Of a stretch of 43,865 bases of DNA, positions 1 through 40,399 are shown in pieces. Position 1 is the stretch's first letter. Every line of letters begins with the position of its first letter. Source of the stretch: a virus. The position numbers and the translations under genes are program-made. The notes beneath the pieces were generated by a model. The model ran no database searches, had not been told where the DNA came from, and saw only the letters and a program-made list of their open reading frames with translations. The DNA lies in the IMG/VR virus record IMGVR_UViG_3300006622_000020, positions 1 to 43,865 of that record. One strand, 5' to 3'.

Positions 1-3000
1 GCATTCCATCTTGAAGCACTGTTACCACCGAAGTTTAAGTCGAAGCTGAATGCATCAAGTAAGTATCCTGTATCTCTTCTACATTTTGCTTTACTATAAT
101 CAAGTACCTTGAAGCTACTGTTTATAAAGTTAGTAACATCAGCAGCAAGTTCTTCCGTATTATCAACGATCTTATTGGCAGCTGCTGTTAATTCTGCAGC
201 AACCCAACTTGCAGTTCCAGTAGGTCTTGGTCTTGCATCAACATCGTTATCACGAATTGACTGTTCAATAACTCCTACTAGGTCATGTACCTGAGTACCT
301 TCAGTTGCTGTAGCAGCCGTACCTAAAAGATTTTGTGGAGTTAGTGTATATGTACTTGCATTAGTAACTGGAGTTTCTTGAACAACTTGCTCAACAACAT
401 CACCTAGTAATTGTAATACATCCGCGTATTGATTTTGCGTATCTACAGGAAGTACAGAAACTCCGTTCTCGAAGTATATACCTGCTGACTGTAATGTAGC
501 AAAATTAGAATCGTGTTGAACATCATGAGAGATCGCGTCAATAATATAACCGATATCTCTTCTACATTTTGCATCAGGGAAACTTAACGCGTTCCAAGTC
601 TTAGATAAGTAACTAATAACAGATTCTGCAAGTATATCAGATCTTCTTTCAACCGCTTCTTTAGAAGTTACAAACGAATCAGCCATCCAAGTTTGTAATA
701 CATCAATACGTTCTGGTATAGTATTTCTGCTTTCAATACTATCATCAACTGCGTTAGCAACAATTTCTGTAAGCTTACGAGCAGCGATACAAGTATTTGG
801 ATTTGCACCATGTACTTTCATATCTTGAGTAGTATTACTATAAGAAGGTATACCATTCCAATATTCGTATTTGGTTACTATATCACCTGTGTAATATTTT
901 CCAGTTCTTGGGAACAATGTAGTTGTGATTGGCTTGGCACCTACAACATGTTCAATGATTTTTGCTAAGTGCAAGAACGCATCTCTTGAACCCATTCTTT
1001 GTTCAATTTGTAATCCAGTATTTACGGCATTCTCAAAGTACATTCCTGCAGTTTGAACTGTTGCCGCATTTCCGCCGTATTGAATATCGTGAGAAACTGC
1101 ATCGATGATATAACCTGTATCTCTTCGACATTTAGCTTCACTATAAGGTAATACCTCAAAGAATTCTGAAAGATAAGCAAGTAGCCCAGTACCAACTGAA
1201 TCCTTAATTCCCTCTATTTGAGAGAAGGCAGTTTGATTTACTGTTTCAAACGATTCAGGAGCAGGGAATACTTGAGCAGGTGCCATAAGCATTGAACCTG
1301 ATGTAATCGCAACTGAAGTAATATCAAATAACGATTCAGCAATTGCTCCAACCTCGGCTCCTGCATTAGAACCAGCCATGTTTTGTGTTTCACCGTTACC
1401 TGCTGATTTTAATCCAGCAATATCGATGTCTTGTACAATTAATTCTGCACAATCACCAAGGTGAGCAAACGCAGCGGCGGATGATTCAATTTGACTTGAA
1501 GGTAAACCAACGTTAACACCATTTTCAAAATAAAGTTTGGTAAAGTTTAGAGTAGCAAAGTTTCCACCAAATTGAATATCGTGTCCTGCCGCATCAATTA
1601 AGTAACCTGTATCTCTTTCACATTTTGCTACATCGTAACTTAAAGAAGGTCTGTTGGCAGCAAGCCATGCTGTCATTTCAGCTATTAAGAATGTTTTGTT
1701 ATTTAATAGTTGAGATCTACCGTTGAGTCTTGAAGGACCAGGACCTGCGATACCGTAACTAATTGCATCAGCAGCAGTACGACCGTTAGTCATAATGTCG
1801 ATGATTTCATTAAACGATTCTGCAGTTCTAATTTTCATTGCACCGTCGGTTACAGCTTCAACTGCCTTATCTCTTGCGAACTCAATACCTTTAACTGTTT
1901 CTGTTAACTGTTCATTAATAACTTTATTTGTTCCTGCAGTATCAATTCTGTATGCAACACCATTGAGTACTGAGTTATGATTAGTGCCTGTTAAAATATC
2001 AGTCTTAACAGCATCAATCAACATATTAACATCTCTCTTACATTTGTCACCGTCAAACACATAGTAACGATTGTGTAGGTAACCTTGTAATTCATCGATG
2101 ATGAAGTCTCTGTTTCTTTGTAATTGCTTTCTTGCCAATGTTCTGTTAGGATCAAACGAAGCCTTAGTCAATGTTGGCATTTGATCTTCTTCGATATTAG
2201 TATCGTCAAGCAAATTGGCAACTGATTGAATAAGATCATGTACTGCCGTACCTGTTGCTGTACTTGCTGCAGTTCCATCAACATTCTGATAAGGACCTGT
2301 ACTAATTGAATCGGCAACAGCAGAAACGAAAGTATGTGGTTGTTGTCCTGAACCGCCATCTCCTACATTCATTGTAATGGTTGTAGCAGTTGAAGAAATA
2401 ACCTTAATACCTTTATTGTAGAAAGGATGATGTGGCTGTGGTGATGTATGATTTGAAACTCCACCGCCTTGACCCATATCACAACTAAATGTAAATCCAT
2501 TTGGCTTCAGATATACAACACTGCCTGTATCAAGTAAATGACCAGCAGGTATTGTTGCGACAAATATTCCTGTAGCAGGATCGTAACTTGCATCAGAAGC
2601 AGTAAACTTGGTATATGAATTTGATGAACCTGCTTCAGTAACAACCTCTGCTGCTAAGTCAGCCAATCTTGTGAAGGCACGTTTTGTTGGTATACGTTGT
2701 TCGTAAGGCAATACATTGATTGCTTCTCTTAAACCTGAAACGTTAGCAGTATCTTCGTAATCAGACAGTGTTTTCATTTGTCCTTTTACTTCAATTGGTA
2801 AAACGTTAGTTGAACGTTGCTGTTCGTAATCAGCAGATGCGCCATCAAATTTACGGAAGTAATAATCAAATACTTCTAATGTATTTTCATTTCCACCGTA
2901 TTCAATATCTCTTGATACAGCATCAACAATAATACCAACATCTCTTTCACAAGTTGTTTTCTTAAATGGTAATCCGTTATAATCATCTCGAAGCATATCA

Positions 3001-6000
3001 ATAACAGCCAACGACAGATTTTCCGTTAGGCCATCAATTGCTTCTGCTGCATCGACCATATCTAATTCGTAATTAGGTTCAACATACTTAGGTAAGAAGT
3101 CTAAAGTATTTTCACTAATAACCTTAGTTACAATATTAACTCTATCTCTTGCGAGGTTAGCAACTTCAATTCCGTAGTCAGCTCCTGAATCATCTTGAGC
3201 AATTGCATTACCTGTTGTAGGAGTAATTGCTTGGTCTCTAACAATTTGCCATATTACTTCAGCAATATGTTCCCAAGTTTTATATGTTGGTTCAATTTGA
3301 TCTGAAGGCAATACCGAAACTGCGTTCTCAAAATACAATCTTGCGAAATTGACAGAACAAGTATTTCCACCAAACTTAACATCTTGTATAATAGAATCTA
3401 CAAGGTAACCTGTATCTCTCTGACAAGCAGCATTATCATATGTTAGTGTTGGGAACTCTTGAGTAATGTAAGCAGCAACTTCAGCTTTAATAAAGTTCTT
3501 ATTTAGAAGTAATTGATTACCTGCTTGATTATGTTCATCGCTTAACGCAGCTCCTGAACCAAATTGAGTTGATCCTGCCGAACCGCCACCCATAATAGTA
3601 GTGATTTCATCAAACGCAGCATTGGCTCTTGTTAAGGCTGTACCTGTAACGTTTGGATCTGCAGCAACCTTAGACTTAAGGAAAGCAACCGATGCAAGTG
3701 TTTCTGTCAATTGGTCATTGATAACTTTATTTGCACCAGCAGAACCAGTTACATAACCGAGTCCCATGAATTGTGAATTCCAAGTAGAGTTCGTTGCCAT
3801 ATCTCTTCGAACTGCATCAAGAATAAATCCTGAATCTCTTGTACATTTGTCACCGTCGAATACGAAGTAATTGTTTTCAAGGAAGTATGATACTTCTTTT
3901 GCCAAGTATTCTTTGTTAGTTTGTAATTGTTCTCTTGCGTATTGACCTTGAGAATTGTAAGTAACTTTAGAAACAGCTTCTTTAGCAACCGATACAAACG
4001 TATGAGCTCCACCTGAACTTGCTATAAGTTGAACTGTAACATCATCACCAGAAACACCAGTAACTCTCATCGGAGTTCTGTAATTGAAATCACCTTTTCT
4101 TGGGTATGAATGTTCAGTTGCATTACCATCCTGTGCACATGTAAACGTAAATGAATATGGAGTAAACTCAACATAATCTTCAGTAGTTAAATCATGTCCT
4201 GGGATTGTTAATACCGAAACACCACTTGTTGTATTATAAGTTGCAGTTGTTGGTGTGTAATGTTTAACGTAAGATGCAGGATCTGTAAATACTAACGCAT
4301 CCGAATCAATTGCTCCAACCTCTGATCTAACGTATGTATGGGTCCCACCAGTACCTGTACCGATGTTCATTGTAATACTATCAGTAGTAACTGCAGTAAG
4401 TTCTACAGGAGTTCTATAAGCAGGATGATGAGCCTGAGGCGCAGCATGTTCTGTAAGGTTTCCGTCTAATGTACAAGTAAAGATTACTGAATTTGGCTTA
4501 ATCATTACCATGTCACCAGCTTCAAACGCGTGCTTACCAATAAAGGCAACAAACTCACCAGTAGATGCATCGTAAGTAGCATTATAAGGAGTATGAGTTG
4601 AAATGTATTTCGCAGATTTAACACTGTTAGCAGTTGCAGAAACAAATGTATGTGCTGAAACATCTGAACTTGTTCCTACATTAACCGTAAACGAAGTTGC
4701 TGATGTAGCCGCAACCACAACAGGCTTCTTATATGCAGGATGTTGTCTTTCACCTTTAATTGCATTTGTGATAGCAGATACAAACGTATGAGTACCACCG
4801 CCATTCGTTACCGCACCAACATTACAACCAATTACGTTTCCATTAACAGAAGTAATGGCAACTGGTTTCTTCCAGAATGGATGATGTGGTTCAGGTGCAG
4901 AATGTTGTGTAAGGTTTCCGTCTATCTCGCAAGTAAATGTAATACCTCTTGGTGCAAATTCAATATGATCACCAACTTTTAATTTATGAGTACCAATGTT
5001 AGCTGTAAACTCACCAGTAGATGGAACGTAGCTTGCAGTTGTTGGAGTAAAGTTAGTAATTGTAGTTGTTGGGTAAGTATGTTGAGTTGCATTACCGTCA
5101 GTTGCACAAGTAAATGTTAAACTGTCAGGAGCAAGTAATACTTCATCACCAACTTGTAAATCGTGAGCACCAACTGTAATTTCTGTTAAACCAGTTACTG
5201 GGTTATAAGTAGCATTAGATGGAGTATAAATTTTATTACCTGAGTTCAGGATTTGCTTAACTTTATCAATTGCTTCGTCTGATCTATGAATCGACGCAGA
5301 ATCACTCAAGCCAATAATTTCTGTTATTGAATTATCAGCAGCGGATACAAATGTATGAGCGTTAGTACCACCAGTTCCTACCATACATACAATCGTATTT
5401 GTAGTTACTGAATGTACTGGGCAAGGATGATTAAAGTAAGGATGTCCTGCTGCAGGTACAGCATCGTTTTGAACTCCGCTACCTGTATCACAACTAAATA
5501 CAATTCCGCCATCTGAGAATTGAACATAATCACCAGGCTGTAAACTATGCTTACCAACTGTTGCTTCAAACCTTCCAGTTGTTGGATCGTAAGTTGCAGT
5601 TGTTGGAGTAAACTGAGCTCCTACCGCGTCTGCTGGCATTATTGCATTAGTTACCGCAGAAACAAACGTATGAGCATAGTTAGTTGATTTACCAACATTC
5701 ATCGTAATTGTTGTTTCGTCGTGATCAACAATTGGGCAAGGCTTGTTGTAATATGGGTGATGAGCTTGTGGTGAAGGATGATTTGCTACGCCGCTTCCTG
5801 CGTCACAACTAAACACAATTCCTTCAAAGGCAAATCTAACATGATCACCAGTAACCAATCCATGACCTGTTCCAATCGTTGCTACCATAATACCTGTTAG
5901 AGGTTCGTAAGTAGCAGTAGATGGAGTAAATCCTGTAGTCGTATTATTTAATCGAGTCTTCAGAGTATCCATCGAACCAAGTGTTTGTGGTAACTGGTTA

Positions 6001-9000
6001 TTAATTACATTATCAGCAAGTGTAGTACCTGCTCTATAAGCAATACCTGTTTGGATTGCATTATAATTTGAACCTGTTAGAATATCTCTTTCAACCGCAG
6101 GTAAAATATATTGAGTTACATCTCGACGACACTTATTAGAATCATATCTGTAATAAGTATCTTCAACATATCCTTCAATCATATCTTGAATAAAGGTTCT
6201 GTTTGCTTGTAACTGTTTTCTTGCATTACGCTTATTAACAGGAATACTTGAATCATTACTCCAACTAATATTATCACCAAGTGTTGATACAGCATTAGGT
6301 AGTGCAGAAACAAATTTATGTTCATCGACGATTGCTGATTTACCTACATCAATTGTAATCTTGCTTGCAGTTGCTCCAAGTACTTCAACCGGAGTTCCTG
6401 CTGCAGGATCGCTTGCTCTTGGGTAACCAGTTCTTGTTCTATGATTATCTCTTGTGCAACTAAATACCAAACCGCCTGTCTTTAACAGAACGTATGAACC
6501 TTCAGACAATCCATGTCCTTTAGTAAACGCGTTTGGCGTTGCACTTACGAAGGTATGAGGTACTTGTCCTGTTCCACCTGTTCCAACATTTAACCTAACC
6601 GTTGTAGAGGTTGTACCAATAACTGGACATGGCTTGTTGTAATAAGGATGGTGAGGAGCAGGTGACGCATGATTTTGAACTCCTGAACCCGTATTACAAC
6701 TGAATATAATACTCTCAGGTTTTATCCAAATATGATCACCAGTTTTTACCTCATGTTTAAGACCAACAGTTGCTTCCATAATTCCTGTAGCAGGATCGTA
6801 GGTTGCGGTTTGTACTGTAAGGCCTTTAGAACCACCGAGTGTGATAACTGATAAACCAGTAACAGGATCATAAGTTGCGGTAGTAGGATTAAACTTGGTA
6901 CCTTTATTTTCAAGGATCTGTAAAATGTTATCATACGAATCATCTAATCTATCGGAGGCAACGTATGAGTCACCGTCAATTAATTTATTCGTTTGATCTT
7001 TTAATCTTTCGTATGCAGCGACTGTTTCGTTATTCTGATTTTCCATAACAGTTTTTGCAGCAGCCATGTAATATGCACGACCTGCAGTTACTGAGTTATA
7101 GTTTGTGTCAAACAACATGTCGTTCTTAACAGCAGGTAGAATATAATCAGATACATCTCTACGACAAGCTTTACTATCGTAAGCATAGAACTCGTCGTTA
7201 TTTTCGATCCAGTCAATTAATTCACCAGTGATTAGTTCTTTGTTGTCCTGTAGAAGTCTTCTCGACGCGGTACGAGGTGTTGAAGTATCTCTCCATATAA
7301 TCGGGTTGATGTTCTCTTCACCATACTCAAGGACATTTAGAAGTTCACCAAAGGATGTTTCAACTCTTTGATTGATTTCACTGTTACCTGTAATGAATAC
7401 TTGTTTTGTTTGATCTCTTAAGTATTCCAATGCACCTTTTGTTTCTTCAAGCTGTTCGCCTGGTACAACATAACTGATTGGTGATCTATAAGTAATACCA
7501 CCTAAACGACCCCAATAGTTTGTATCTAATGCAATGTCGTATCCTGTGCCATCAAGTACAATACCTGAATCTCTTAAACATTTTTCTGAATCGTACTCTT
7601 GGTAACCTAATCCACCGTTTACTGTATTAGATGTTAAGTAACTAACCATATCGTCGATAATATCATCTGCAGCATAATCAACTGATTCTGCGAATGCACT
7701 ATTACCAACAATTGTTTGTGTTGTTGATTTTGGAGCAAAGAATTCTGTTGTTCCTTTTGCTCTCATTGATATATCACCGAACTGAGTACCTGAGTTGTTC
7801 AACGTCATCTGACCACCGTTCAGTGCATAGAACGCACAACGAACGAAGATTGACAATGAACCAATACCGTTAACACCAGCACCGTCTCTAGCAACATATC
7901 CTAAACCGTTTTGAGTACGAGGTGTGAAACCAAAACAAAGTACGTAGGTATATAATGAATCGGTATCAAGTACTCTTCTATCTGCAAGTACACAACCACC
8001 ACCACGACCAACCGCTCTGTTAGGGAAGTCGTCAATTCCGATGGATTGAACTGTTGCTGTACCACCAGATTCTGAAGTTATTGTATCACCTACCGCAAAT
8101 CCTTGTCCGTTCTTAAGGTTACGAACTCTGATTGTACGCAAGTTAGATATATCACCAGGTACAGTTCCTTTGAGTGCATCTAATGAATCATCCCAAGATA
8201 AGTAACCAATAGCACCAGACGAGAATCTAATTTCATCATCAAGTTGCCATAAGCTTGCAGAAGGAGTTGCACTGTTTCCTGTAATATTTGACTCAAGTAC
8301 AAATGTTTGACCAAGGTCAGCAAGAGTACCTTTTGAGTTATAAGGATTAAGAGGTGGTTCAACATCTTGACGTAAGAAGTTAGATAGCTGAGTACTATCT
8401 CTTAAGTAAGGTGAACGTAATAGTTTGGCACCAGGTCGATAGGCAATCGCAAATCCGCCTTCTGGGAAATCAAAGTTATCAACCTTAAAGTTTTGATAAC
8501 CAAATCCTTGAACATAACCACCAGAACCAACTAAGATTCCGTTATTGTTTTCATATCCAGGAAGTAGTTCAATAACTGTAGCATACTGACCTGCAGTCGA
8601 AGTACAAGAACAATCATCAGGCAACATCAAGTTACCTTTTGTATAATAAGTACCAGGACCTACTGAAATATGAACAGCGTTATTAATTGCGTTACGATTT
8701 AATTCGCCACCTGCTTTTTCTAAACAAAGTTCAAACGCTCTTTCCAATGTTCTAACAGGAGCCAACATTGTTCCTGTGTTTGTATCTTTACCTGAAGCAG
8801 CATCAACGTGAACCTTAAGTGCTTGTGCAGTTGATTTAGATACTTCATCAAATAATTGCTTATATGAAATCTGTTCGGTATCACCTGTCTTTTCATTACG
8901 GATTGCGAAATAAGATTCATCATCCATTGGTGCTTCGAATTCTTTCGTAAGATCCATATCAAAGTCAGCTAATCTTGACCTATCAATTACACCACCTGTA

Positions 9001-10061
9001 AATGTTGATTGCTCAATCCCACCATTTTCAAAGGTAGAATTATTTGCACCAAGACCGTCGGCAGATGAACTACGGATTGTCATATTCGTTGATATGACGT
9101 CGTCCATTGAACCTGTGAATGTACTATCGGTGATTATACTATCAGAAATTGTAGAATCATCAATTGTAGAATTGGTTAGAGTTACATTGTTTCCTGTACC
9201 GTCGTTGAACTCTGAATCTGTAATAACAACATTATTAGCAGTAGAATCATCAATTGTTCCATCGGTGAAAGATGAATTAATTATGGCAGCGTTATCAATA
9301 TCACCATCGGTATATGTTGAATCTGTAATGTCAACATCGTCTGCAGTACCACCAGTAATATCTGATTCATCAATCGTACCAGCATTGAATTGTGATGTAC
9401 TAATGACAAGGTTATTAGCACTACTGTCGGCAAGTGTTCCATCAGTGAAAGATGAGTCACTAATTGTTAAATTGTTTGCTGTACTATCAGTGATTGTAGA
9501 ATCATCGATAGTTGAGTTGGTAAGTACAACGTTATTACCTGTACCTTCGTTGAACTCGGAATTTGTTATGATACTGTTATTGACAGTAGAATCTGTTATC
9601 GCAAAGTTGTTTGCTGAACCATCAAGTAAAGTAGTATTATCAAAAGTGTTATTATTACCTGTACCTTCAGAGAAGTCTGAATAAGTAATCGTAATATTGT
9701 TTGCTGTATTGTTTTCAAGGTGACCTAAGTTGAAGGTCGAGTATGTTATTACAATATTGTTAGCATCTGAATTCGTAATGACTGTGTCGTCAATTGAACC
9801 ACGGCGGAAAATAGTATCTTCAATTTCAGAGTTGTCAATTTCAACATTGTTAAGACGTGAGTCGGACATGACCACACCGGAGATAGTTCCTCCAGTGATG
9901 TTGATTCTAGAAAAGACTTCGTACTGAATTGCTTCAACTAATTCTCTTCTAGTAATATTACTCGTACCATCGTCACCCTGTACAAGATTGACAATAACAA
10001 ATAGATCTTCTGATCTGGTATTGCCACCGGTAATCGGAGGTAGTTCTGAAATTTTTGCCAT
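1..10061 (-). CDS. Giant repeat-rich virion structural protein (C-terminus beyond window)
   Basis: The frame opens at ATG 10061 (MAKISELPPITGGN...) and stays open to base 1 wherever I translated it, so at least about 3,350 residues are present; the stop lies outside the window. Residues about 55-335 are short solenoid-like repeats (variants of TNSEFNEGTGNN, DSTIDDSTITDST), likely a right-handed beta-helix. Residues about 415-600 resemble a pectate-lyase-like beta-helix entry (VDAASGKDTNTGTMLAPVRT). The rest alternates two repeat families. One is alpha-rich, with a C-R-R-D motif (for example KCRRDTGYLLDAFSFD), seen about eleven times. The other is a beta module (ATYDPxTG, xxGDxVxF, FTC, HHPxYxKP, TITMNVG, HTFVSA), seen about eight or more times, mostly between 2.3 and 6.8 kb. 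Similar repeats are known in marine T4-like structural proteins. A late-type promoter box lies just upstream. Probably a tail fibre or other tail appendage; exact role unknown. Confidence 0.8.
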   Translation of the reverse strand, partial: MAKISELPPITGGNTRSEDLFVIVNLVQGDDGTSNITRRELVEAIQYEVFSRINITGGTISGVVMSDSRLNNVEIDNSEIEDTIFRRGSIDDTVITNSDANNIVITYSTFNLGHLENNTANNITITYSDFSEGTGNNNTFDNTTLLDGSANNFAITDSTVNNSIITNSEFNEGTGNNVVLTNSTIDDSTITDSTANNLTISDSSFTDGTLADSSANNLVISTSQFNAGTIDESDITGGTADDVDITDSTYTDGDIDNAAIINSSFTDGTIDDSTANNVVITDSEFNDGTGNNVTLTNSTIDDSTISDSIITDSTFTGSMDDVISTNMTIRSSSADGLGANNSTFENGGIEQSTFTGGVIDRSRLADFDMDLTKEFEAPMDDESYFAIRNEKTGDTEQISYKQLFDEVSKSTAQALKVHVDAASGKDTNTGTMLAPVRTLERAFELCLEKAGGELNRNAINNAVHISVGPGTYYTKGNLMLPDDCSCTSTAGQYATVIELLPGYENNNGILVGSGGYVQGFGYQNFKVDNFDFPEGGFAIAYRPGAKLLRSPYLRDSTQLSNFLRQDVEPPLNPYNSKGTLADLGQTFVLESNITGNSATPSASLWQLDDEIRFSSGAIGYLSWDDSLDALKGTVPGDISNLRTIRVRNLKNGQGFAVGDTITSESGGTATVQSIGIDDFPNRAVGRGGGCVLADRRVLDTDSLYTYVLCFGFTPRTQNGLGYVARDGAGVNGIGSLSIFVRCAFYALNGGQMTLNNSGTQFGDISMRAKGTTEFFAPKSTTQTIVGNSAFAESVDYAADDIIDDMVSYLTSNTVNGGLGYQEYDSEKCLRDSGIVLDGTGYDIALDTNYWGRLGGITYRSPISYVVPGEQLEETKGALEYLRDQTKQVFITGNSEINQRVETSFGELLNVLEYGEENINPIIWRDTSTPRTASRRLLQDNKELITGELIDWIENNDEFYAYDSKACRRDVSDYILPAVKNDMLFDTNYNSVTAGRAYYMAAAKTVMENQNNETVAAYERLKDQTNKLIDGDSYVASDRLDDSYDNILQILENKGTKFNPTTATYDPVTGLSVITLGGSKGLTVQTATYDPATGIMEATVGLKHEVKTGDHIWIKPESIIFSCNTGSGVQNHASPAPHHPYYNKPCPVIGTTSTTVRLNVGTGGTGQVPHTFVSATPNAFTKGHGLSEGSYVLLKTGGLVFSCTRDNHRTRTGYPRASDPAAGTPVEVLGATASKITIDVGKSAIVDEHKFVSALPNAVSTLGDNISWSNDSSIPVNKRNARKQLQANRTFIQDMIEGYVEDTYYRYDSNKCRRDVTQYILPAVERDILTGSNYNAIQTGIAYRAGTTLADNVINNQLPQTLGSMDTLKTRLNNTTTGFTPSTATYEPLTGIMVATIGTGHGLVTGDHVRFAFEGIVFSCDAGSGVANHPSPQAHHPYYNKPCPIVDHDETTITMNVGKSTNYAHTFVSAVTNAIMPADAVGAQFTPTTATYDPTTGRFEATVGKHSLQPGDYVQFSDGGIVFSCDTGSGVQNDAVPAAGHPYFNHPCPVHSVTTNTIVCMVGTGGTNAHTFVSAADNSITEIIGLSDSASIHRSDEAIDKVKQILNSGNKIYTPSNATYNPVTGLTEITVGAHDLQVGDEVLLAPDSLTFTCATDGNATQHTYPTTTITNFTPTTASYVPSTGEFTANIGTHKLKVGDHIEFAPRGITFTCEIDGNLTQHSAPEPHHPFWKKPVAITSVNGNVIGCNVGAVTNGGGTHTFVSAITNAIKGERQHPAYKKPVVVAATSATSFTVNVGTSSDVSAHTFVSATANSVKSAKYISTHTPYNATYDASTGEFVAFIGKHAFEAGDMVMIKPNSVIFTCTLDGNLTEHAAPQAHHPAYRTPVELTAVTTDSITMNIGTGTGGTHTYVRSEVGAIDSDALVFTDPASYVKHYTPTTATYNTTSGVSVLTIPGHDLTTEDYVEFTPYSFTFTCAQDGNATEHSYPRKGDFNYRTPMRVTGVSGDDVTVQLIASSGGAHTFVSVAKEAVSKVTYNSQGQYAREQLQTNKEYLAKEVSYFLENNYFVFDGDKCTRDSGFILDAVRRDMATNSTWNSQFMGLGYVTGSAGANKVINDQLTETLASVAFLKSKVAADPNVTGTALTRANAAFDEITTIMGGGSAGSTQFGSGAALSDEHNQAGNQLLLNKNFIKAEVAAYITQEFPTLTYDNAACQRDTGYLVDSIIQDVKFGGNTCSVNFARLYFENAVSVLPSDQIEPTYKTWEHIAEVIWQIVRDQAITPTTGNAIAQDDSGADYGIEVANLARDRVNIVTKVISENTLDFLPKYVEPNYELDMVDAAEAIDGLTENLSLAVIDMLRDDYNGLPFKKTTCERDVGIIVDAVSRDIEYGGNENTLEVFDYYFRKFDGASADYEQQRSTNVLPIEVKGQMKTLSDYEDTANVSGLREAINVLPYEQRIPTKRAFTRLADLAAEVVTEAGSSNSYTKFTASDASYDPATGIFVATIPAGHLLDTGSVVYLKPNGFTFSCDMGQGGGVSNHTSPQPHHPFYNKGIKVISSTATTITMNVGDGGSGQQPHTFVSAVADSISTGPYQNVDGTAASTATGTAVHDLIQSVANLLDDTNIEEDQMPTLTKASFDPNRTLARKQLQRNRDFIIDELQGYLHNRYYVFDGDKCKRDVNMLIDAVKTDILTGTNHNSVLNGVAYRIDTAGTNKVINEQLTETVKGIEFARDKAVEAVTDGAMKIRTAESFNEIIDIMTNGRTAADAISYGIAGPGPSRLNGRSQLLNNKTFLIAEMTAWLAANRPSLSYDVAKCERDTGYLIDAAGHDIQFGGNFATLNFTKLYFENGVNVGLPSSQIESSAAAFAHLGDCAELIVQDIDIAGLKSAGNGETQNMAGSNAGAEVGAIAESLFDITSVAITSGSMLMAPAQVFPAPESFETVNQTAFSQIEGIKDSVGTGLLAYLSEFFEVLPYSEAKCRRDTGYIIDAVSHDIQYGGNAATVQTAGMYFENAVNTGLQIEQRMGSRDAFLHLAKIIEHVVGAKPITTTLFPRTGKYYTGDIVTKYEYWNGIPSYSNTTQDMKVHGANPNTCIAARKLTEIVANAVDDSIESRNTIPERIDVLQTWMADSFVTSKEAVERRSDILAESVISYLSKTWNALSFPDAKCRRDIGYIIDAISHDVQHDSNFATLQSAGIYFENGVSVLPVDTQNQYADVLQLLGDVVEQVVQETPVTNASTYTLTPQNLLGTAATATEGTQVHDLVGVIEQSIRDNDVDARPRPTGTASWVAAELTAAANKIVDNTEELAADVTNFINSSFKVLDYSKAKCRRDTGYLLDAFSFDLNFGGNSASRWN

Positions 10062-11602: not shown

Positions 11603-14600
11603 CTAGGTTAGCGCTATGCCGCGGTAATCTTTTAGAGTAGGTGCACTGTGAATGTTTGGTGATAATAAGTCGATTCGTATTTGGAATCTCTTAAATCCTT
11701 CAAACGCTCCACCTTGGCTTGTGTAAGTAAACGCAGAACCAGGAAGGCCACCTGTTTTATTAGATGCAGGAATTCTATATTTAAACTCTCGATAATCATC
11801 AAGGTTAACTGCTGTAGAGAATGAACCTACACCTTCAAATAATTCGAGTTCAGTCCATCCTAAATTATCGAACTCATCGAAGTCATAACCGTTTTGAGCT
11901 TTAATATAAACCTTAACATTAGTATCAGCAGGACGATAAGCAGAAAGAGTTAATTCAAAATCTTCTGCATCAAGGTCTTCTGCCAATTCTATTTTCCTAC
12001 TAATATATTTACTTGTAGTATCATCAACATTAGTAATCTTATATTGATATGCAATTAATTTAGATGACTCAATATCAACGAATGGAGTAGAAGTAACATT
12101 ACTATCATTTTCGAGAGCAACATTTAACTTAAATGATTTTGCTCCACTTGGGTCATTAGACTTACTATAAAGAATAACACCTTTTTCTGTAAAGTAATTA
12201 TTATCATTAAACTTCATCGGCTTGTTATAAGTAAGATTTACATCAGCAGGAGGAACAAACGTACCTGTTAGTTTTGTTCTTGATGATGAATCATTTGCTT
12301 TCATAATCATTGGCTGAATATAACTTAAATTAATATTATTGATTGAAGCCACTGTAGAATATGAAGTACTATCTAATCCTTTAATTACTATACCTGCGGA
12401 AAATGTTTTTACAGCTGTTGCCGAAGAATTAACCAAATGACATTCGTATGGATTCCTAGCAACATCATACATATCCAATTCACCAACAACGACAGGAATA
12501 TGTGTAATAGCTCCAGAAATACCAGCTGGTGATTCCAATGCTATTTCACTTGCGTTTGTTACTCCAGCAATCTTATGTATTTCAATTAACGATGTATCAG
12601 CATTAGAGATTATTTTAATATAATCACCTGCCGCGTAATTATCAGTTAATAGTGATCCACCTGAAATTAATTTAGCACTTACGGAAGCAGCATTAGATGC
12701 TGGATCAGTTAAAGCAATTTCTTGATATAACAATTCACCAGGAGTAAATTTACCTGTGATGTTACTCAAAGTTAAAAACTCGTGATCATTGTTTGTTAAT
12801 CTAACTGTACCTGTTGAAGAATTAAAGTTATGTCTTCTTAATGTAAATTTAATATCTTCGTCTTGATATGATTTCCAAGCAGAGTTGTTTGTAGAAGTAA
12901 ATAGAACACCGTCACCCCAATCCTGAGTAATAGCAGAACCTTTTGTTGCTCCTGGTGTTAAATCAATTCCACCAACCTTAGAAGTAAACACAAGGTAATT
13001 AGGATCTGATGCATCAGGCTGAATGACAACTGAATATTCTTTTTCTGTGTCTAATCGTACAGGTGCTTCAAATGTAAATGTTGTTGCCGCGGAAGCATCA
13101 TCAGATACATTTACTTGAGCGGGTGTTTTATGAACTGCAGAGAAAGGCAATATTTGATTTGTTGGATAACCGTTTACAACTTCTCTTATCTGAACTGTAA
13201 CACCGTTTAACGCAGCCGCTGAACTTGATCCTGACTGATCCTGAGACGGTTTACGTTTAAAGTAAACATCAATATCTGATAAGTAAATTGAGTTAGAACC
13301 TGCACCCATACCTTTCTTAATAAAGAATGTTTGTGCAAGTGGATCTCTACCTCGAATACGACGAGCAACGTTTCTTGTTGTTACTGTAGTATTTACATCA
13401 AAGTTTGGAGATCTTGTTGAAGTTGTTAAACTTGTTTTCTCAACACTGAAGTTATATGCTCGATAAGTAACGAATCCTTTTGAAGTAGAAGCAGAATCAA
13501 TACTTGAATATTGGCTTACGTCAACAATTTCTAATACTCTATCACCTACATAAAATGTTTCAGCAGGTAAATGGAATACGGCTCTTAATACACCGTTTGC
13601 ATCCGTTGTTACATTAGCTCCTTTAACTCCCATTCTTGCCACTTCACCAACAGAGTTAGCTGTACTTGAACCTGGCATAACATGAGCGTTTACATCAACA
13701 CCATCAAAGAAAAAGTAATGTCTTTGATTAGGTCTTAATCCTGACATATAAACTTTAATATCTCTTGATGCCATATATGGTTGGAATCTAAAGTCAGAAA
13801 CAAATTCACCAACAAAGCTTTCAGTTGTTGTTGATCCATCTATTTCAATTTCGCTTGTTCTTGTTGTGATAGTAGTTGTTTCTAATCCTGCACCACGTCT
13901 TCCTCTTCTACCGCCATCACGAATAAAGTTAGTTGTAGTTGATGTATCAGTCATTGGTAAGAACGATTGAATCTCATCAACGAATTCTTGGAAAGGCGTT
14001 GTTAAATCAATGTCAATAGAAGCAGGGTTAACTGTTGTATCATAAGCAGCATCGTAAGGTGGAGATATAACTCCATCACCTACATACTTGTAAAAGTTAC
14101 TTACACAGTTTCTAAAGTTAGATGCATAAGGCTGATTAATAATTTCAACGTTTGAGTTTCTTCCGATTGTTGCTACTTGAGCATTATCAGTAGATGGGAA
14201 CACTGAAGAACCCGTTGCTGAATCATATTTAAGATCTAACGCAAAAGTTTTCAACGAAGGAGTTAATATCTTTTTATTAAATGGTACAGCAGCATTAAAT
14301 TGTGGATGTGATACTTCTGATAACTGAAGATTATCAAACGGATCTACAACAAAGCCATTCTTAAATCTATTCAAACCGTTCTCATCACGAATAATCATAT
14401 TCGAGGTTTCGGATTCTAATTGATTTAATGAAATGTAATATGCCATGTTATCAATTTTCTTTTCCAATTGATGCATATCTTTCATTGTGTAGTTCTTAAT
14501 ACCCGTTGCTCTTGGCTTAATAGAATAATCACTCTTATTCAAAATATCAGCTTGCTTTTTAGATAACGCAGGGAAAGTTGGAATCTCAACGTTTGCGATT

Positions 14601-17047
14601 GCTAACTGGTCAGTTTCGAGTCTAGGCGGTACTGCATTCTTTTGCTCTTCACCTTTTATCAAAATAATATCACCATAAGAATCACAAGCAACTGTATCAA
14701 TTCTTGATAGGTAATGCTCAATATCTGTTTGTAATGATTGTTGTGCTGCAGGTATTAACGGATTAGGAGCAGTCGCAAATGTTATTGGCTGTGTTCCTAC
14801 CGTGGTTGTAATAAGTGGTGCCTGAGCAGGTATTGTTGCCGTATAGTTAGCATTTGAGATCTTATCTACTTGAGGTCTGAAATCGAAACAATCTCTTAAG
14901 TTATAAACTTGACCTGACTCAGAAACATAAGAAGGAATATCATATCTTTCTAATGTATTTGGGTAACTGTTAATTGTAAAGAAATAGTTTCCTGTTGAGG
15001 CTTCTAATTTAAATGCCTTCATTGTTGTAAACAGATTACCAGGAGGTGGCTTAGGACGACCTTCAATATATTCTATATAAGATATATCGTAATAAGTATC
15101 TTTTTGATTTGGCTTTAATCTAAAACTGTTTGTCCAATCTTCATCAGTTCCACCAGGACCTGTGCCTTGAGTGATAATAGAAACAATTCCAAACACATCA
15201 GGAAAACCTAAAGAGTATTTAGTTTGTGTTGTGGCATAGGTTGATCTAATGCACGGTAACACTACAGTTTTATTAAAAGGATCAATACCACCTGAAGAAC
15301 CAACAAGCCTTTTATTAAAGAATACTTCGACTGATCCGCTTAAGGCTCCATCACAAACAATATTAAGTTGTGAATTATTTAATGCAGTAGTCCTACTGAG
15401 GACAGGGTATTGAGTTCCGGCTTGGTTAACTAAAATCTCTGTGATTTCGTTTGTGCAATTAAAATCTTCTCCAGGATTTGCCGTAATAGTAATTGTACCA
15501 GCAGACGCTGTTCCTGTTACTTGTGTTCTTACAGGAATATATGTATTTGTTGTTGCGAATAATCCATTCACACCTGTATCAAATATTAACGCCTTCTTGC
15601 TTGTTTCTTTAATGACAGGAGCACCAAAACCAGTAACCTTAACAGGCAAGTCACCGTTTCCACCATTTAATTTAGTAAGGGCACTTAAAAACTCTGATCC
15701 TGTAAATATAGCGTGTTGAATATAAGCTCTTGTAGGTGTTAGGTTTAAAACCTTTACCGATCCTAAACTTTGCGAACTACCATTTTGTGCATCAATGCTA
15801 GCTTGAATATTAAGATCTACATAACCACGACTTGATGATGAATCATCGATCTGTAAATAGTTTCCATATTCCATGCCAACGTTTTGCGCTTCAATTGTTT
15901 CAGTGGCAGCAATTTGGTCAATCTGAAAAGAACGCTCACCAGAATTTTCTACTCTATAACCTTTTACATAAGCAGTACCATTACCTACAACGAGTTGTAC
16001 TTCACTATCACGATCGTCTGTACTTAATGGGAATTGTTCTAATATGTAATTTCCTGACTCTTCGTAAGTACGTCGAGCCATCTCTTCGCCCAATACATTA
16101 TATTGAGAAACGTCACGAATAGTAATTGCATTACCATTTTGATAACGAATCAATGTAAAGAAGTCAGAGTTTGCACCAGCTTCGGGCGTTTCTAATACTG
16201 TTAGTGTTGGGACAAGTTTTAATCTATCTGCACCAGGCGCGTTTTCATTTTTGGCACCGTTAGCATTATCATATAAACTTGCATCTTGAATAGCACTTGT
16301 TAATGATTCTTCAACTAAATAACCTACTGATTTGTCATCAGGAGTATTACTATATTTTTCAACAACTAATCTTTGTTCTGCTGTAAATATAAAATGGCCT
16401 TTCTGGAATATAATACCAGGAGCAGCTTCAATACCAAAGGCTTTACCAACTGCAGGTGTTGCACCGCCGCCGTAAACTTCAAGACCTTGACTTATAATTG
16501 AATCGACTGTTAATGATTCGTCAGTTGTACCACGTAAGAATTTATATCTTGTTAAGACTAATGATTCACCAGCCTGGAATTGAGTTTGTCCTAACACACC
16601 AATATTCAAATAGTTAATAAAGAATGTGTTTAGATTAGGTGGTCTTGTTTGGAATCCTTTTGCTGCTTGAACAATTTCTGCTCTAAGACCGGTTACTTGT
16701 CCTCGTATTTCGTAAACATAATCCAGTTCAACTTCTTGACCAGCAAGAGTTTCAACTGTAGGACCACTAATATATGCTTCTGGGTTAAACCCGGCATCTG
16801 GTCCTTGATTTAATTTTACAAATTGAAGATCATCGAGTTCTGTAAAGTTACATCCTTTTACAACCGATCCTTCTTTGAATACGTTATCACCAAACGACTC
16901 GACCTGATTCTGAAGCATAGTCTGGAGTTGTGTAAGTTCTCTTGCCTGTATTGCATACCCAGGCTTGAACATAACTCGATAGAACTGCTTTTCGGCATCG
17001 TAGTCATCGAAGTACGGCGCTTGGTTTAAATTTTTATTAATAGGCAT
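11603..17047 (-). CDS. Large DUF4815-like virion structural protein (probable baseplate/tail periphery)
   Basis: 1814 aa. The N-terminus (MPINKNLNQAPYFDDYD, then FYRVMFKPGYAIQARELTQ and LQTMLQNQVESFGDNVFKEG) is the hallmark start of DUF4815 proteins found in T4-like marine phages. The remainder is long beta-rich sequence, including an RRGRRG patch and repeated TTT/STT stretches near the middle; the C-terminus ends SAPTLKDYRGIALT. It lies directly after gp8 in transcription order, where T4 keeps genes 9-12 for the outer baseplate, so it may replace those peripheral wedge or fibre-attachment proteins. That role is inferred from position. The start is the only sensible Met at the head of the conserved block, 15 bases after the gp8 stop. 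Confidence 0.8.
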   Translation of the reverse strand: MPINKNLNQAPYFDDYDAEKQFYRVMFKPGYAIQARELTQLQTMLQNQVESFGDNVFKEGSVVKGCNFTELDDLQFVKLNQGPDAGFNPEAYISGPTVETLAGQEVELDYVYEIRGQVTGLRAEIVQAAKGFQTRPPNLNTFFINYLNIGVLGQTQFQAGESLVLTRYKFLRGTTDESLTVDSIISQGLEVYGGGATPAVGKAFGIEAAPGIIFQKGHFIFTAEQRLVVEKYSNTPDDKSVGYLVEESLTSAIQDASLYDNANGAKNENAPGADRLKLVPTLTVLETPEAGANSDFFTLIRYQNGNAITIRDVSQYNVLGEEMARRTYEESGNYILEQFPLSTDDRDSEVQLVVGNGTAYVKGYRVENSGERSFQIDQIAATETIEAQNVGMEYGNYLQIDDSSSSRGYVDLNIQASIDAQNGSSQSLGSVKVLNLTPTRAYIQHAIFTGSEFLSALTKLNGGNGDLPVKVTGFGAPVIKETSKKALIFDTGVNGLFATTNTYIPVRTQVTGTASAGTITITANPGEDFNCTNEITEILVNQAGTQYPVLSRTTALNNSQLNIVCDGALSGSVEVFFNKRLVGSSGGIDPFNKTVVLPCIRSTYATTQTKYSLGFPDVFGIVSIITQGTGPGGTDEDWTNSFRLKPNQKDTYYDISYIEYIEGRPKPPPGNLFTTMKAFKLEASTGNYFFTINSYPNTLERYDIPSYVSESGQVYNLRDCFDFRPQVDKISNANYTATIPAQAPLITTTVGTQPITFATAPNPLIPAAQQSLQTDIEHYLSRIDTVACDSYGDIILIKGEEQKNAVPPRLETDQLAIANVEIPTFPALSKKQADILNKSDYSIKPRATGIKNYTMKDMHQLEKKIDNMAYYISLNQLESETSNMIIRDENGLNRFKNGFVVDPFDNLQLSEVSHPQFNAAVPFNKKILTPSLKTFALDLKYDSATGSSVFPSTDNAQVATIGRNSNVEIINQPYASNFRNCVSNFYKYVGDGVISPPYDAAYDTTVNPASIDIDLTTPFQEFVDEIQSFLPMTDTSTTTNFIRDGGRRGRRGAGLETTTITTRTSEIEIDGSTTTESFVGEFVSDFRFQPYMASRDIKVYMSGLRPNQRHYFFFDGVDVNAHVMPGSSTANSVGEVARMGVKGANVTTDANGVLRAVFHLPAETFYVGDRVLEIVDVSQYSSIDSASTSKGFVTYRAYNFSVEKTSLTTSTRSPNFDVNTTVTTRNVARRIRGRDPLAQTFFIKKGMGAGSNSIYLSDIDVYFKRKPSQDQSGSSSAAALNGVTVQIREVVNGYPTNQILPFSAVHKTPAQVNVSDDASAATTFTFEAPVRLDTEKEYSVVIQPDASDPNYLVFTSKVGGIDLTPGATKGSAITQDWGDGVLFTSTNNSAWKSYQDEDIKFTLRRHNFNSSTGTVRLTNNDHEFLTLSNITGKFTPGELLYQEIALTDPASNAASVSAKLISGGSLLTDNYAAGDYIKIISNADTSLIEIHKIAGVTNASEIALESPAGISGAITHIPVVVGELDMYDVARNPYECHLVNSSATAVKTFSAGIVIKGLDSTSYSTVASINNINLSYIQPMIMKANDSSSRTKLTGTFVPPADVNLTYNKPMKFNDNNYFTEKGVILYSKSNDPSGAKSFKLNVALENDSNVTSTPFVDIESSKLIAYQYKITNVDDTTSKYISRKIELAEDLDAEDFELTLSAYRPADTNVKVYIKAQNGYDFDEFDNLGWTELELFEGVGSFSTAVNLDDYREFKYRIPASNKTGGLPGSAFTYTSQGGAFEGFKRFQIRIDLLSPNIHSAPTLKDYRGIALT

Positions 17048-19075: not shown

Positions 19076-20950
19076 CTAGGAACTGAAAGAAACCTTTTGT
19101 CGAGGCCAAACTCTGCCTGATTCTGGTCTTCTTCCTTCTGATGTTGCCTCTGATCCGCCTGCGATGTATTTACCGCTTCCCATTCTTATACCCCAAGGTA
19201 TATGTACTCTTAATGGAGGTGTTCCGTATAATTCAGATAAGTCTGCTTGACCATTTTGGTATTGATTGTCCTTAATTGAATTAACATCCGTTGAAGAATA
19301 TAACATTGTAGATGGTATATCAGCTGGGGTAGGACTATTAGAAAAGTCAATTAAATCTTCTCCAATTAAATTCTCTTTTGCATGTTTTATCATTAGTGCT
19401 TTTAATTCAGCAATAGATGGATATACTCCTCGTTGAGTATAATACCAATCTAAGAATACGACCGCACAACCTGCTGCAACTGGTCCTGCACAACTTGTTC
19501 CACTAAAGTATCCCCATTTGCCATCTGAATAATTACCTGTTGGATAACTTGTCCAAGTATATGCACCATAAGCAGCAAAGTCAATTCCTGGTCCTCTATT
19601 ACTATAATCATCCATTAATCTATTTACATCATCTTGTTGACAAGCAGCAATTGTAAATTGATTATCACCACCACCAGCTTCTTGTCTTAATGGATAAAAT
19701 GTTAAAGCATTAGAACTTACATTAGTTGTAAATTGATTTCTTTCTTCACTGTCTAAAGTATTAATTACACCGTCAGCCCCCACGCCTACAACTATTTGTG
19801 TATTAAATCTTCCGTCTTCTGGGTCAACAAACACGTGAGCATTATTACCTGCAGATTTAAAATGATATATTCCATTATAGTTATTAAACTGACCCATAAT
19901 GGTATCATAAGAAGAGGATCTTGTTTGGTCAGGAATAGAAATACACCAATGTTTAGTTAATGAACCTGGGTCTTCAATAACTCTTGGAATTAAATTCGCA
20001 TCTGTAAATGGTGTTAAATCATTTCCCCAAGCAAGGCCGGGTCGATTAATTTGAGTAAGATTTCCATCTTTATCACGTACGTTTAATGTTTGTATGTGAT
20101 CACAGCGATAAAATCTTTCATGGTCAACACCAATATAACCCCAAGCACCAGTAACTACGGTTGCATTACGAACTCCTGTCACTGGGTTAACGGGTTTGCT
20201 GATATGCCATTGTAATACTCCATAGTAACAGTTCGTAACACCGTCTGACAAATAAACCACTCTTAAAGTCGACTTTTTACCCCAACCACAATGTTTACCA
20301 CCGGCTGCACTTAATACTCCAATTGCATGATTTGAAAACCAATTTGCACTATCATTTGTTACTTGATTATTTCTTGCATCATTCAACGAACTACTAACTG
20401 TTGACCAATCCATTGGAATAAATCTTGAATTCGTACTATCAAATTCCTGGAAGTCAACGTGATTTTCATGGCCTGCATTACTTGCTGAAGGAGTACCCGC
20501 TTCAATCGCAACAATATCAACATACTCGCCTAAAAAGTTTGACTTAACGGTATCATCAAATTGATATTCAGAACCTTGAAAATATCCAAAAGGTTGAGTT
20601 CCATCAGCAGGGTCAAACTCGCTTGAAAAGAACATGTTTAATCCGGTATTATCTGCACCAGCAGTACCACCATTAGGAGCAAATTTAGTTCTGTATGTTA
20701 CAGTTCCACTTTCATATCTAGGAGTCGTTGACGGATAAGATACTTCTTCCACTCTTTTTTCTGGTAAACATTCTAAAACTTTACCACTTGCTATAATTAT
20801 ATCTGCCTCTTCTTCAGTTAACATCATTACTAACAAGCCGTCAAACAGATCTGGGTTATTGTTTAACTCCATATCTCTTGCTTCGTTTTCCAATAGGTCT
20901 GTTTCCAGAACTCCTGGCTGCATAACGATGTTGTACATTTTCTTAGACAT
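19076..20950 (-). CDS. Subtilisin-like (S8) protease-fold virion protein with Glu at the catalytic Asp site
   Basis: 624 aa. S8 landmarks appear in order: VDIVAIEAGT (canonical xDxG block, with E150 where Asp is expected), NHAIGVLSAAGG (His block, H208), FKSAGNNAHV (oxyanion Asn, N369) and FSGTSCAGPVAAG (nucleophile S486). The N-terminal about 100 residues look like an added prodomain or docking region. There is no signal peptide, as expected for a virion component. It lies between the cupredoxin fibre-like gene (3-base gap) and gp8, so it is probably tail or baseplate associated. It may cleave host surface protein or process a phage structural protein. The Asp-to-Glu change may lower or alter activity; Ser, His and Asn are retained. 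Confidence 0.8.
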   Translation of the reverse strand: MSKKMYNIVMQPGVLETDLLENEARDMELNNNPDLFDGLLVMMLTEEEADIIIASGKVLECLPEKRVEEVSYPSTTPRYESGTVTYRTKFAPNGGTAGADNTGLNMFFSSEFDPADGTQPFGYFQGSEYQFDDTVKSNFLGEYVDIVAIEAGTPSASNAGHENHVDFQEFDSTNSRFIPMDWSTVSSSLNDARNNQVTNDSANWFSNHAIGVLSAAGGKHCGWGKKSTLRVVYLSDGVTNCYYGVLQWHISKPVNPVTGVRNATVVTGAWGYIGVDHERFYRCDHIQTLNVRDKDGNLTQINRPGLAWGNDLTPFTDANLIPRVIEDPGSLTKHWCISIPDQTRSSSYDTIMGQFNNYNGIYHFKSAGNNAHVFVDPEDGRFNTQIVVGVGADGVINTLDSEERNQFTTNVSSNALTFYPLRQEAGGGDNQFTIAACQQDDVNRLMDDYSNRGPGIDFAAYGAYTWTSYPTGNYSDGKWGYFSGTSCAGPVAAGCAVVFLDWYYTQRGVYPSIAELKALMIKHAKENLIGEDLIDFSNSPTPADIPSTMLYSSTDVNSIKDNQYQNGQADLSELYGTPPLRVHIPWGIRMGSGKYIAGGSEATSEGRRPESGRVWPRQKVSFSS

Positions 20951-20953
20951 TTA

Positions 20954-39886: not shown

Positions 39887-40399
39887 TTATTCTCCTTTGA
39901 GGTAAGCGAGTACATTCTCTGGAGTTGTTTCACCGTATGGATCTGTTGGACAATCATCTTCAAATCCTGGTTCACTAAATAATCTCTCAACGGTACCATC
40001 GTCTACGACCATAGCATATCTCCAAGATCTTTTACCAAAACCAAGATTGTCTTTTGCGACTAACATATCCATTCCTGCTGTAAATTCGCAAGAACCATCA
40101 GGAATCAATTTAACATTTTTAATTCTCAAGTCTTCAGCCCACGCATTCATTACAAATGTATCATTACAGCTTACACAGTATACTTCGTCAATACCTGCTT
40201 CAGTAATCTGGTCATATAGGACATCAAATCCTGGTACTTGATTATTAGAACAGGTTGGTGTAAATGCGCCGGGTAGTGAAAATACAACTACTCTTTTACC
40301 TTTAAAATAATCGTCTGTAGTTGGGTAGGTCCAATCGAACTCACCGCTTTCTACGTTTCTGCTTCTTACTTTAAAAGTTACGTTAGGGACAGTTTTCAT
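39887..40399 (-). CDS. Peroxiredoxin (Prx5/AhpC-TSA type)
   Basis: 170 aa, full length for a Prx5-type peroxiredoxin. It has the peroxidatic motif LPGAFTPTCS with C50 (consensus P-x3-T-x2-C), FKGKRVVVFSLPGAF ahead of it, the VYCVSCND segment (C75, C78), and KRSWRYAMVVDDG, which supplies the conserved Arg side. Family members reduce hydrogen peroxide and organic peroxides using thioredoxin or glutaredoxin as reductant. There is no signal peptide, so it acts in the host cytoplasm. It probably protects the infected cell or virion assembly from oxidative damage. The gene follows hsp20 after a hairpin-containing 56-base spacer and ends at a terminator. Most likely acquired from a host. Confidence 0.9.
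   Translation of the reverse strand: MKTVPNVTFKVRSRNVESGEFDWTYPTTDDYFKGKRVVVFSLPGAFTPTCSNNQVPGFDVLYDQITEAGIDEVYCVSCNDTFVMNAWAEDLRIKNVKLIPDGSCEFTAGMDMLVAKDNLGFGKRSWRYAMVVDDGTVERLFSEPGFEDDCPTDPYGETTPENVLAYLKGE

Follow-up and report, generated by a model that had tools for sequence, protein, structure and literature searches.

Tandem repeats with a predicted phycobiliprotein-like fold in a giant protein of marine T4-like phages

The window analysed here is the whole of a 43,865-base IMG/VR virus record, in which PHROG matches identify T4-like baseplate, tail-tube and clamp-loader genes. Its clamp loader is closest to that of Methylophilales phage Melnitz (55%), and its gp6-like baseplate protein is nearest to those of the Sinorhizobium phages phiN3 and phiM12 (38-39%). 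The 10 records of this clade that were searched yielded no psbA, so the host is likely to be non-cyanobacterial. A single giant reading frame on the minus strand (positions 3 to 10061) begins with an ATG at 10061, encodes 3353 amino acids with zero in-frame stops, and is open at the window's left end. The original prediction of a frame of more than 3,350 amino acids that leaves the window is thus borne out, and the in-frame stop that it named as grounds for refutation is absent; 46 of 75 relatives are complete, with both an N-terminus and a stop. The closest relative (L003) is 92% identical and complete at 3749 amino acids, so about 400 residues are missing from the window's copy. The expectation that it would rank among the largest proteins of such a phage holds for this window, but it is surpassed elsewhere, an alpha-repeat-bearing frame of cyanophage P-TIM40 having 7352 codons. 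The neighbouring protein of 1814 amino acids (11603-17047) falls in PHROG 358 (E 1e-283), a family with no function assigned, and a frame at 39887-40399, adjoining an Hsp20 gene, resembles a peroxiredoxin in its motif, by eye only.

The giant opens with a conserved segment (residues 1-60, positions 9882-10061, 91% mean identity to the L013 homologue over 40 aligned proteins), which is the probable virion-attachment part. A pentapeptide-like short-repeat solenoid follows (residues ~54-355, 8997-9902); such an N-terminal solenoid had been predicted, and at 38.9 bits it just exceeds the Pfam PF13599 cut-off of 38. A further well conserved segment (residues ~415-770, 7752-8819) is pectin-lyase-like by eye only, with no Pfam match and a poor structure model (pLDDT 48). 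The giant as a whole matched neither PDB sequences nor NCBIfam.

The remainder is made up of two repeat families, termed alpha units and beta modules, recognized with HMMs built from the window's own repeats. Alpha units 1 (CLRD, Cys828, 7434-7691) and 2 (CRRD, Cys966, 7017-7262), both found by motif and HMM, are followed by a full beta module (6519-6815), itself preceded by a short partial match at residues 1059-1085, and by a partial module (6282-6530). Beyond alpha unit 3 (CRRD, Cys1311, 5976-6221, motif and HMM) lie seven further beta matches by HMM: two full modules (5634-5924 and 5319-5606), an N-terminal half (5046-5222), a full module (4749-5045), a C-terminal half (4614-4757) and two more full modules (4302-4589 and 3966-4253). 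Alpha units 4 (CTRD, Cys2073, 3693-3935) and 6 (CERD, Cys2371, 2802-3047) are supported by motif, HMM and structure model, and unit 5 between them (CQRD, Cys2213, 3279-3521), the one that matches phycobiliproteins at Z ~16, by HMM and model. The last beta module is full and has eight strands in the model (2298-2600, HMM and model), so that beta modules in the window span 2298-6815. Alpha unit 7 (CKRD, Cys2674, 1890-2132) is again supported by motif, HMM and model, and the array then runs on by motif and HMM through units 8 (CERD, Cys2814, 1473-1718), 9 (CRRD, Cys2978, 981-1226) and 10 (CRRD, Cys3166, 420-662) to unit 11 (CRRD, Cys3327, 3-179), which is cut by the window edge.

With alpha units written as A and beta modules as b, the resulting order is AAbbbAbbbbbbbAAAbAAAAA; two families had been correctly recognized from the outset, but they do not alternate as was claimed. 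The count of about eleven C-R-R-D repeats holds for the number, and all eleven read C-x-R-D, with exact CRRD in only five. Where at least eight beta modules carrying FTC and HHPxYxKP had been expected, there are 11 HMM matches, seven full and four partial, with nine F[ST]C sites, and HHPxYxKP is exact in two of six HHP-like sites. The left-hand spacing of about 480-570 bases was correctly read, at 161-188 residues or 483-564 bases. Alpha HMM E-values within the giant range from 5e-22 to 9e-31, and shuffled copies of 66 proteins gave no matches to the repeat HMMs. Tandem duplication is supported, but it is ancient: identity among 10 alpha units of the window giant is only 15-42%, which indicates that the duplications are old and that the array was inherited rather than recently formed.

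Across 79 diverse copies taken from the window and its relatives, the beta module never varies at one Gly, at Cys42, at Pro54 or at His87, and it keeps His23 in 99%, so that a metal site is a candidate role for the conserved Cys and His. When the 79 members were compared with Pfam only scattered matches resulted, and the best PDB sequence match had an E-value of 0.4. Metal binding or cross-linking had been proposed for the conserved Cys and His of the repeats in general; a metal site is a candidate in the beta module, but the alpha Cys is better explained as a bilin-attachment position.

Scanning IMG/VR with the N-terminal third of the giant yielded the 75 relatives, and 40 of the 46 complete proteins are distinct. 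Complete relatives have 3028-4177 residues, apart from L050, whose frame ends at 1940 residues with 4 alpha units, through either natural truncation or assembly error. A comparison of repeat number between relatives, suggested earlier as a check, showed a near-constant alpha number (11 in 35 of the 40 distinct complete relatives, 12 in two, 19 in two and 4 in one short frame), whereas beta matches vary from 2 to 11 in the same set. Among the 35 proteins with 11 alpha units, length tracks beta number at ~94 residues per beta match (r 0.97), and the number of full beta modules changes at least 13 times on a tree of 40 giants, including the window's, built on the non-repeat N-terminal parts. Both ends are conserved, the last 95 residues retaining 93-94% mean identity to L013, and most of the repeat region is less conserved than the ends by this measure. 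The variable C-terminal tip expected of a tail fibre was not found in these relatives, in which the C-terminus is among the most conserved parts. Two relatives (L037 and L071) combine 19 alpha units with only two beta modules, as does the incomplete L067 with 15 alpha units. Several relatives show a weak, degenerate twelfth alpha unit without the Cys (E 0.0007-0.009; for example L022, residues 2877-2926). At the 11 loci examined downstream (L003, L010, L013, L028, L035, L037, L038, L046, L052, L058 and L070), a short gene comes next after the giant (~140-155 codons, measured on a partial frame in L052), and beyond it a collagen-like (G-x-Q-G) frame extends past the end of the locus.

The same alpha and beta families occur in cyanophage giants annotated as virion structural or tail fiber proteins (PHROG 5342, 701, 18802 and 4527; ~3000-7350 codons), and the window giant belongs with these in one general class of giant late protein, matching PHROG 5342 and 701 at E 1.2e-122 and 1.2e-117 over 11 and 12 stretches. 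Alpha units of cyanophages and of the window share a profile. Unlike the cyanophage giants, those of the window's clade have N- and C-terminal parts that match 2 and 0, respectively, of 50,697 phage records (tblastn). The clade itself is distinct from the cyanophages, lacking psbA in the 10 records mentioned above and CpeT in four records, mostly fragments. One cyanophage giant, gp85 of S-CREM2, has been proven to be in the virion (PMC10665884); it contains no alpha unit at E <= 0.001.

C-x-R-D is present in 701 of 714 alpha units from the window, its relatives and four cyanophage loci, and all but one of the 13 exceptions retain the Cys and the Asp. Among 193 units of less than 80% identity, chosen blind to the motif, the conserved fractions are.99 for C,.97 for R and 1.00 for D, with further conservation at D(+14) (.99), N(+20) (.96) and Y(+30) (.99). 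Alpha units are only ~17% alike by column, yet the C and D are nearly universal. Motif-blind counts are those of the 714 and 193 units; in one alignment (A3), picked for C-x-R-D, invariance of the motif is by construction. Among 146 cyanophage alpha units encoded beside cpeT, 23 have only C..D and 13 are without the motif.

In profile alignment, this motif falls on the C-x-R-D bilin-attachment site of phycocyanin alpha, Cys84-x-Arg86-Asp87 in phycocyanin alpha numbering. According to one study, C-x-R-D is frequent in phycobiliproteins, where its Cys carries the bilin while its Arg and Asp form hydrogen bonds to the pigment; the motif recurs in some non-photosynthetic bilin-binding globins, which load bilin without a lyase (PMC10151467). 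When a profile of 110 alpha units was run against PDB sequences, phycocyanin alpha chains made up 24 of the 27 matches at E <= 10 (best E 0.006), and Pfam Phycobilisome was the commonest family among the 110 members (8 of 110, best E 0.011, under the cut-off). No single alpha unit passes the curated cut-off of this family (PF00502). Matches to PF00502 inside giant frames at E <= 1 were found in 10 of 14 phage records versus 4 of 14 control genomes, and among the latter four only a cyanobacterium passes the cut-off. The two phage records of 14 that exceed it, S-RIM32 (20858-21247) and S-H9-2 (154745-154993), do so by the summing of short tandem matches in one frame; these cover PF00502 positions ~29-82, lie ~43 residues apart just before the alpha units, and were rejected as support, the spacing being too short for a domain.

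Further information came from hhalign comparisons with phycocyanin sequences (cpcA and cpcB, taken from GTDB contigs). Alpha units of the window's clade, together with the four cyanophage loci, scored 35.3 against cpcA (probability 77%), and the same set scored 33.0 against cpcA plus cpcB, where 60 shuffled decoys reached at most 18.2 and the reversed profile 12.2; with C, R and D masked, the window-clade signal is gone (14.9). Cyanophage units beside cpeT scored 45.4 against cpcA (probability 91%) and still 28.9 after the same masking, with 40 masked decoys at or below 14.6. Homology is therefore best supported through the cyanophage units, whose signal survives masking while that of the window's clade does not.

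Structure prediction is consistent with this relation. In an AlphaFold2 model of residues 2031-2770, made from 37 sequences (pLDDT 81.4, pTM 0.62), the alpha units are helical and the beta module has eight strands. Phycobiliproteins dominate the Foldseek list against the PDB at probability 1.00, with a TM-score by target of 0.71 for 7lj0_B (145 residues), whereas 4zvb_B, a globin of similar size, reaches 0.59; no PDB match to this model reached E <= 0.001. A second aligner, VIA, gave Z ~16, above its warning level of 13-14 for helical models, among which helical bundles easily give middling matches. In most of its top rows 138-156 residues superpose at rmsd 2.2-3.1 A; some top rows, at rmsd 5-7 A, take in more of the neighbouring unit. 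Almost every one of the 50 VIA rows listed is a phycobiliprotein or a bilin-binding protein derived from one, and the rows span model residues 52-286 only, in essence a single alpha unit with a portion of the adjacent one. When a library of predicted viral structures was searched, tail and structural proteins of cyanophages and uncultured phages came out best. One such match, E3SL21 of S-SSM7 (36% identity over 113 columns), comes from a phage with no alpha-profile match and perhaps concerns the beta module. The alpha unit is very probably a phycobiliprotein-like globin domain carrying the attachment motif.

In cyanophages, the giants that bear alpha units have a conspicuous neighbour. In ACG-2014e the alpha giant is immediately preceded by a CpeT-like gene; in S-PM2 the two are a few genes apart. 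Among named phages, the alpha giant adjoins full-length-type CpeT (>125 bits) in 8 of 8 cases, whereas none of six shorter CpeT genes adjoins one, the nearest alpha match being 35-58 kb away. Of the named phages, 14 of the 15 with alpha units have CpeT and none of the 10 without (Fisher 3e-6, uncorrected for relatedness), in a set partly chosen as matches of the window protein; for 13 cyanophages chosen independently of that protein, the figures are 7 of 8 with alpha units and 0 of 5 without. An IMG/VR survey took in the best 80 of 119 CpeT loci. Among these 80, 52 loci have at least 3.5 kb downstream, and 47 of them carry an alpha ORF within 3 kb, the other five comprising two at 3.1 and 3.5 kb and three with less than 4 kb downstream. 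Every one of the 46 surveyed uncultivated loci with at least 5 kb downstream has an alpha ORF that starts within 4 kb downstream of cpeT on the same strand, as have all 28 non-redundant loci among them, at gaps of 245-3472 bases. As controls, denV had an alpha ORF at 7 of 17 loci (same-strand at 4 of 17, and those same four also carry CpeT) and a 2OG-Fe(II) oxygenase at 2 of 7, both sets including distant homologues that are possibly other genes; bilin reductase had none at 19 loci, a weak control with loci 86-99% alike and many short flanks. In all 13 loci that include a full 9 kb upstream, two upstream gene families show linkage as tight as that of cpeT, so conserved block synteny is part of the picture. 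The S-PM2 record (AJ630128) annotates 16 tRNA genes inside the CDS of its giant (L196, 165928-177267), where ARAGORN finds none; the nine tRNA genes that ARAGORN does find lie between 163382 and 165302, in the region of cpeT ahead of the giant, and the annotation is probably a coordinate error in the record.

Bilin reductase shows no correlation with alpha repeats, being present in two of six phages with alpha units and two of eight without. Mosig and P-SSM2 have the reductase and no alpha repeat; S-PM2, S-RIM32, S-H9-2 and ACG-2014e have alpha repeats and no reductase; P-SSM4 and P-TIM40 have both. S-CREM2 has a weak CpeS match and no alpha unit. Within the window's clade, neither bilin reductase nor heme oxygenase was found in 30 records (the longest 156 kb, most of them fragments), nor CpeS in 12, mostly fragments. 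A 2017 JBC study reportedly found that phage CpeT binds phycoerythrobilin and did not transfer it to a host phycobiliprotein, a behaviour that would fit a phage substrate. T-type lyases, relatives of CpeT, are said to serve Cys-153, not Cys84 (PMC10452541), a point against the loading of alpha units by CpeT. What cpeT does in cyanophages has been described as unresolved (PMC3037559), and the hemO/FDBR cassettes of phages as 'still enigmatic' (PMC11480375).

The reading frame, its repeats, their predicted fold, the position of the motif and the gene linkage are the observations from which we build. Our preferred reading, to which we give somewhat better than an even chance, is a rod of phycobiliprotein-like domains in the tail or baseplate region, with variable beta decoration and probably loaded with bilin in cyanophages. 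Against it stand the lack of bilin genes in the window-clade records searched, bilin reductases that do not track the repeats, short CpeT genes far from any alpha match, the loss of the window-clade profile signal on masking, and single-unit scores under the Pfam cut-off. The giant would be a virion-associated protein of the tail or baseplate region of a marine T4-like phage, fixed to the particle by its conserved N-terminus. Its pentapeptide-like solenoid would lead into a rod where 11 globin-like domains, all with the phycobiliprotein and bilin-binding-globin fold, follow one another, and into which beta modules would be inserted as variable decorations, ending in the C-terminus that is strongly conserved in relatives. 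The likeliest reason for the retention of C-x-R-D would be attachment of a linear tetrapyrrole. The CpeT encoded just upstream of the cyanophage giants would load bilin onto the phage's own protein during assembly; in the window's clade any bilin would have to come from the host and attach by itself. The pigment might contribute to fibre stability, to photoprotection or to a light response at adsorption. The chances that alpha units carry bilin in some cyanophages seem about even or a little better; that they do so in the window's own phage is plausible at somewhat less than even chances. These strengths are judgements, not computed values.

The most serious alternative, though in our view a less likely one, is that alpha units descend from bilin-binding globins and serve as rigid fibre beads without pigment, C-x-R-D being structural or simply inherited. 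The absence of bilin genes from the window-clade records searched, the lack of correlation with bilin reductase and the cyanophage units without the motif would all suit such a scaffold, as would an alpha number fixed like a structural ruler (11 in 35 of 40) while the beta number varies. It fits less well with a C and D nearly universal in such divergent units and with a lyase gene directly upstream of the cyanophage giants, and we know of no reason of structure alone that would demand these very residues at one and the same point of the helix. An adhesive tail fibre, in which beta modules bind host glycans or metal-bridged ligands, alpha units are spacers and the likeness to phycobiliproteins is incidental, would agree with the annotation of relatives as tail fiber or short tail fiber, with the conserved His and Cys of the beta module, and with its changing number and effect on protein length; we judge it improbable, as the C-terminus, the usual site of tip diversity, is conserved like the N-terminus, and C-x-R-D and the cpeT linkage are left unexplained. 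Least probable by far is an unrelated helical bundle whose alpha Cys and Asp bind metal or cross-link chains, as first supposed: such folds readily yield middling structural matches and the window-clade sequence signal sits in the motif alone, but Z ~16, a match list almost wholly of bilin proteins and the alignment of cyanophage units with cpcA even when motif-masked speak against it. It is the fold and the motif position that lead us to set a metal or cross-linking role of the alpha Cys below bilin attachment.

Against known systems, the giant is to be placed among the giant structural proteins already known from cyanophages, as a relative of bilin-binding globins whose units do not reach the Pfam score. 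Its alpha units resemble phycobiliproteins (PF00502; phycocyanin, phycoerythrin) in predicted fold and in C-x-R-D at the Cys84 position, and the cyanophage units resemble them also before the motif. Unlike phycobiliproteins, the phage units are concatenated 11-19 fold, have a loop before the motif that is 11 residues shorter, and score below the Pfam cut-off. Bilin biosynthesis-associated globins (BBAGs) are described as phycobiliprotein paralogues outside light harvesting, in which they are like alpha units, but they are single globins encoded beside bacterial bilin reductase genes (PMC10151467). Cyanophage CpeT, an enzyme and not a repeat protein, is a plausible partner where it lies directly upstream of the alpha giant; its short forms are unlinked. 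New here is the predicted phycobiliprotein fold; this relation, the constant alpha against variable beta number, and the cpeT linkage had all gone unnoticed at first reading. In the literature searched, with most subscription journals outside the coverage, there is no apparent report of phycobiliprotein-like phage tail or virion proteins.

A phycobiliprotein-like structural protein with cpeT upstream offers a concrete substrate for phage bilin genes whose role has been unresolved. We tentatively propose, at odds we place somewhat short of even, that marine T4-like phages build a covalent, phycobilisome-like rod of 11-19 bilin-bearing globins per tail-region protein, loaded by CpeT in cyanophages; some ocean viruses may thus carry pigment on the virus particle. 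If the virion or the giant is pigmented, pigment genes so far credited with tuning the photosynthesis of the host would instead work for the virus particle, and adsorption could respond to light. Light-dependent adsorption has been reported for several cyanomyoviruses (PMC2984593), and a bilin-bearing rod, if real, could underlie it. Even if the rod carries no pigment, widespread marine phages would have adopted the phycobiliprotein fold as a structural bead repeated in tandem.
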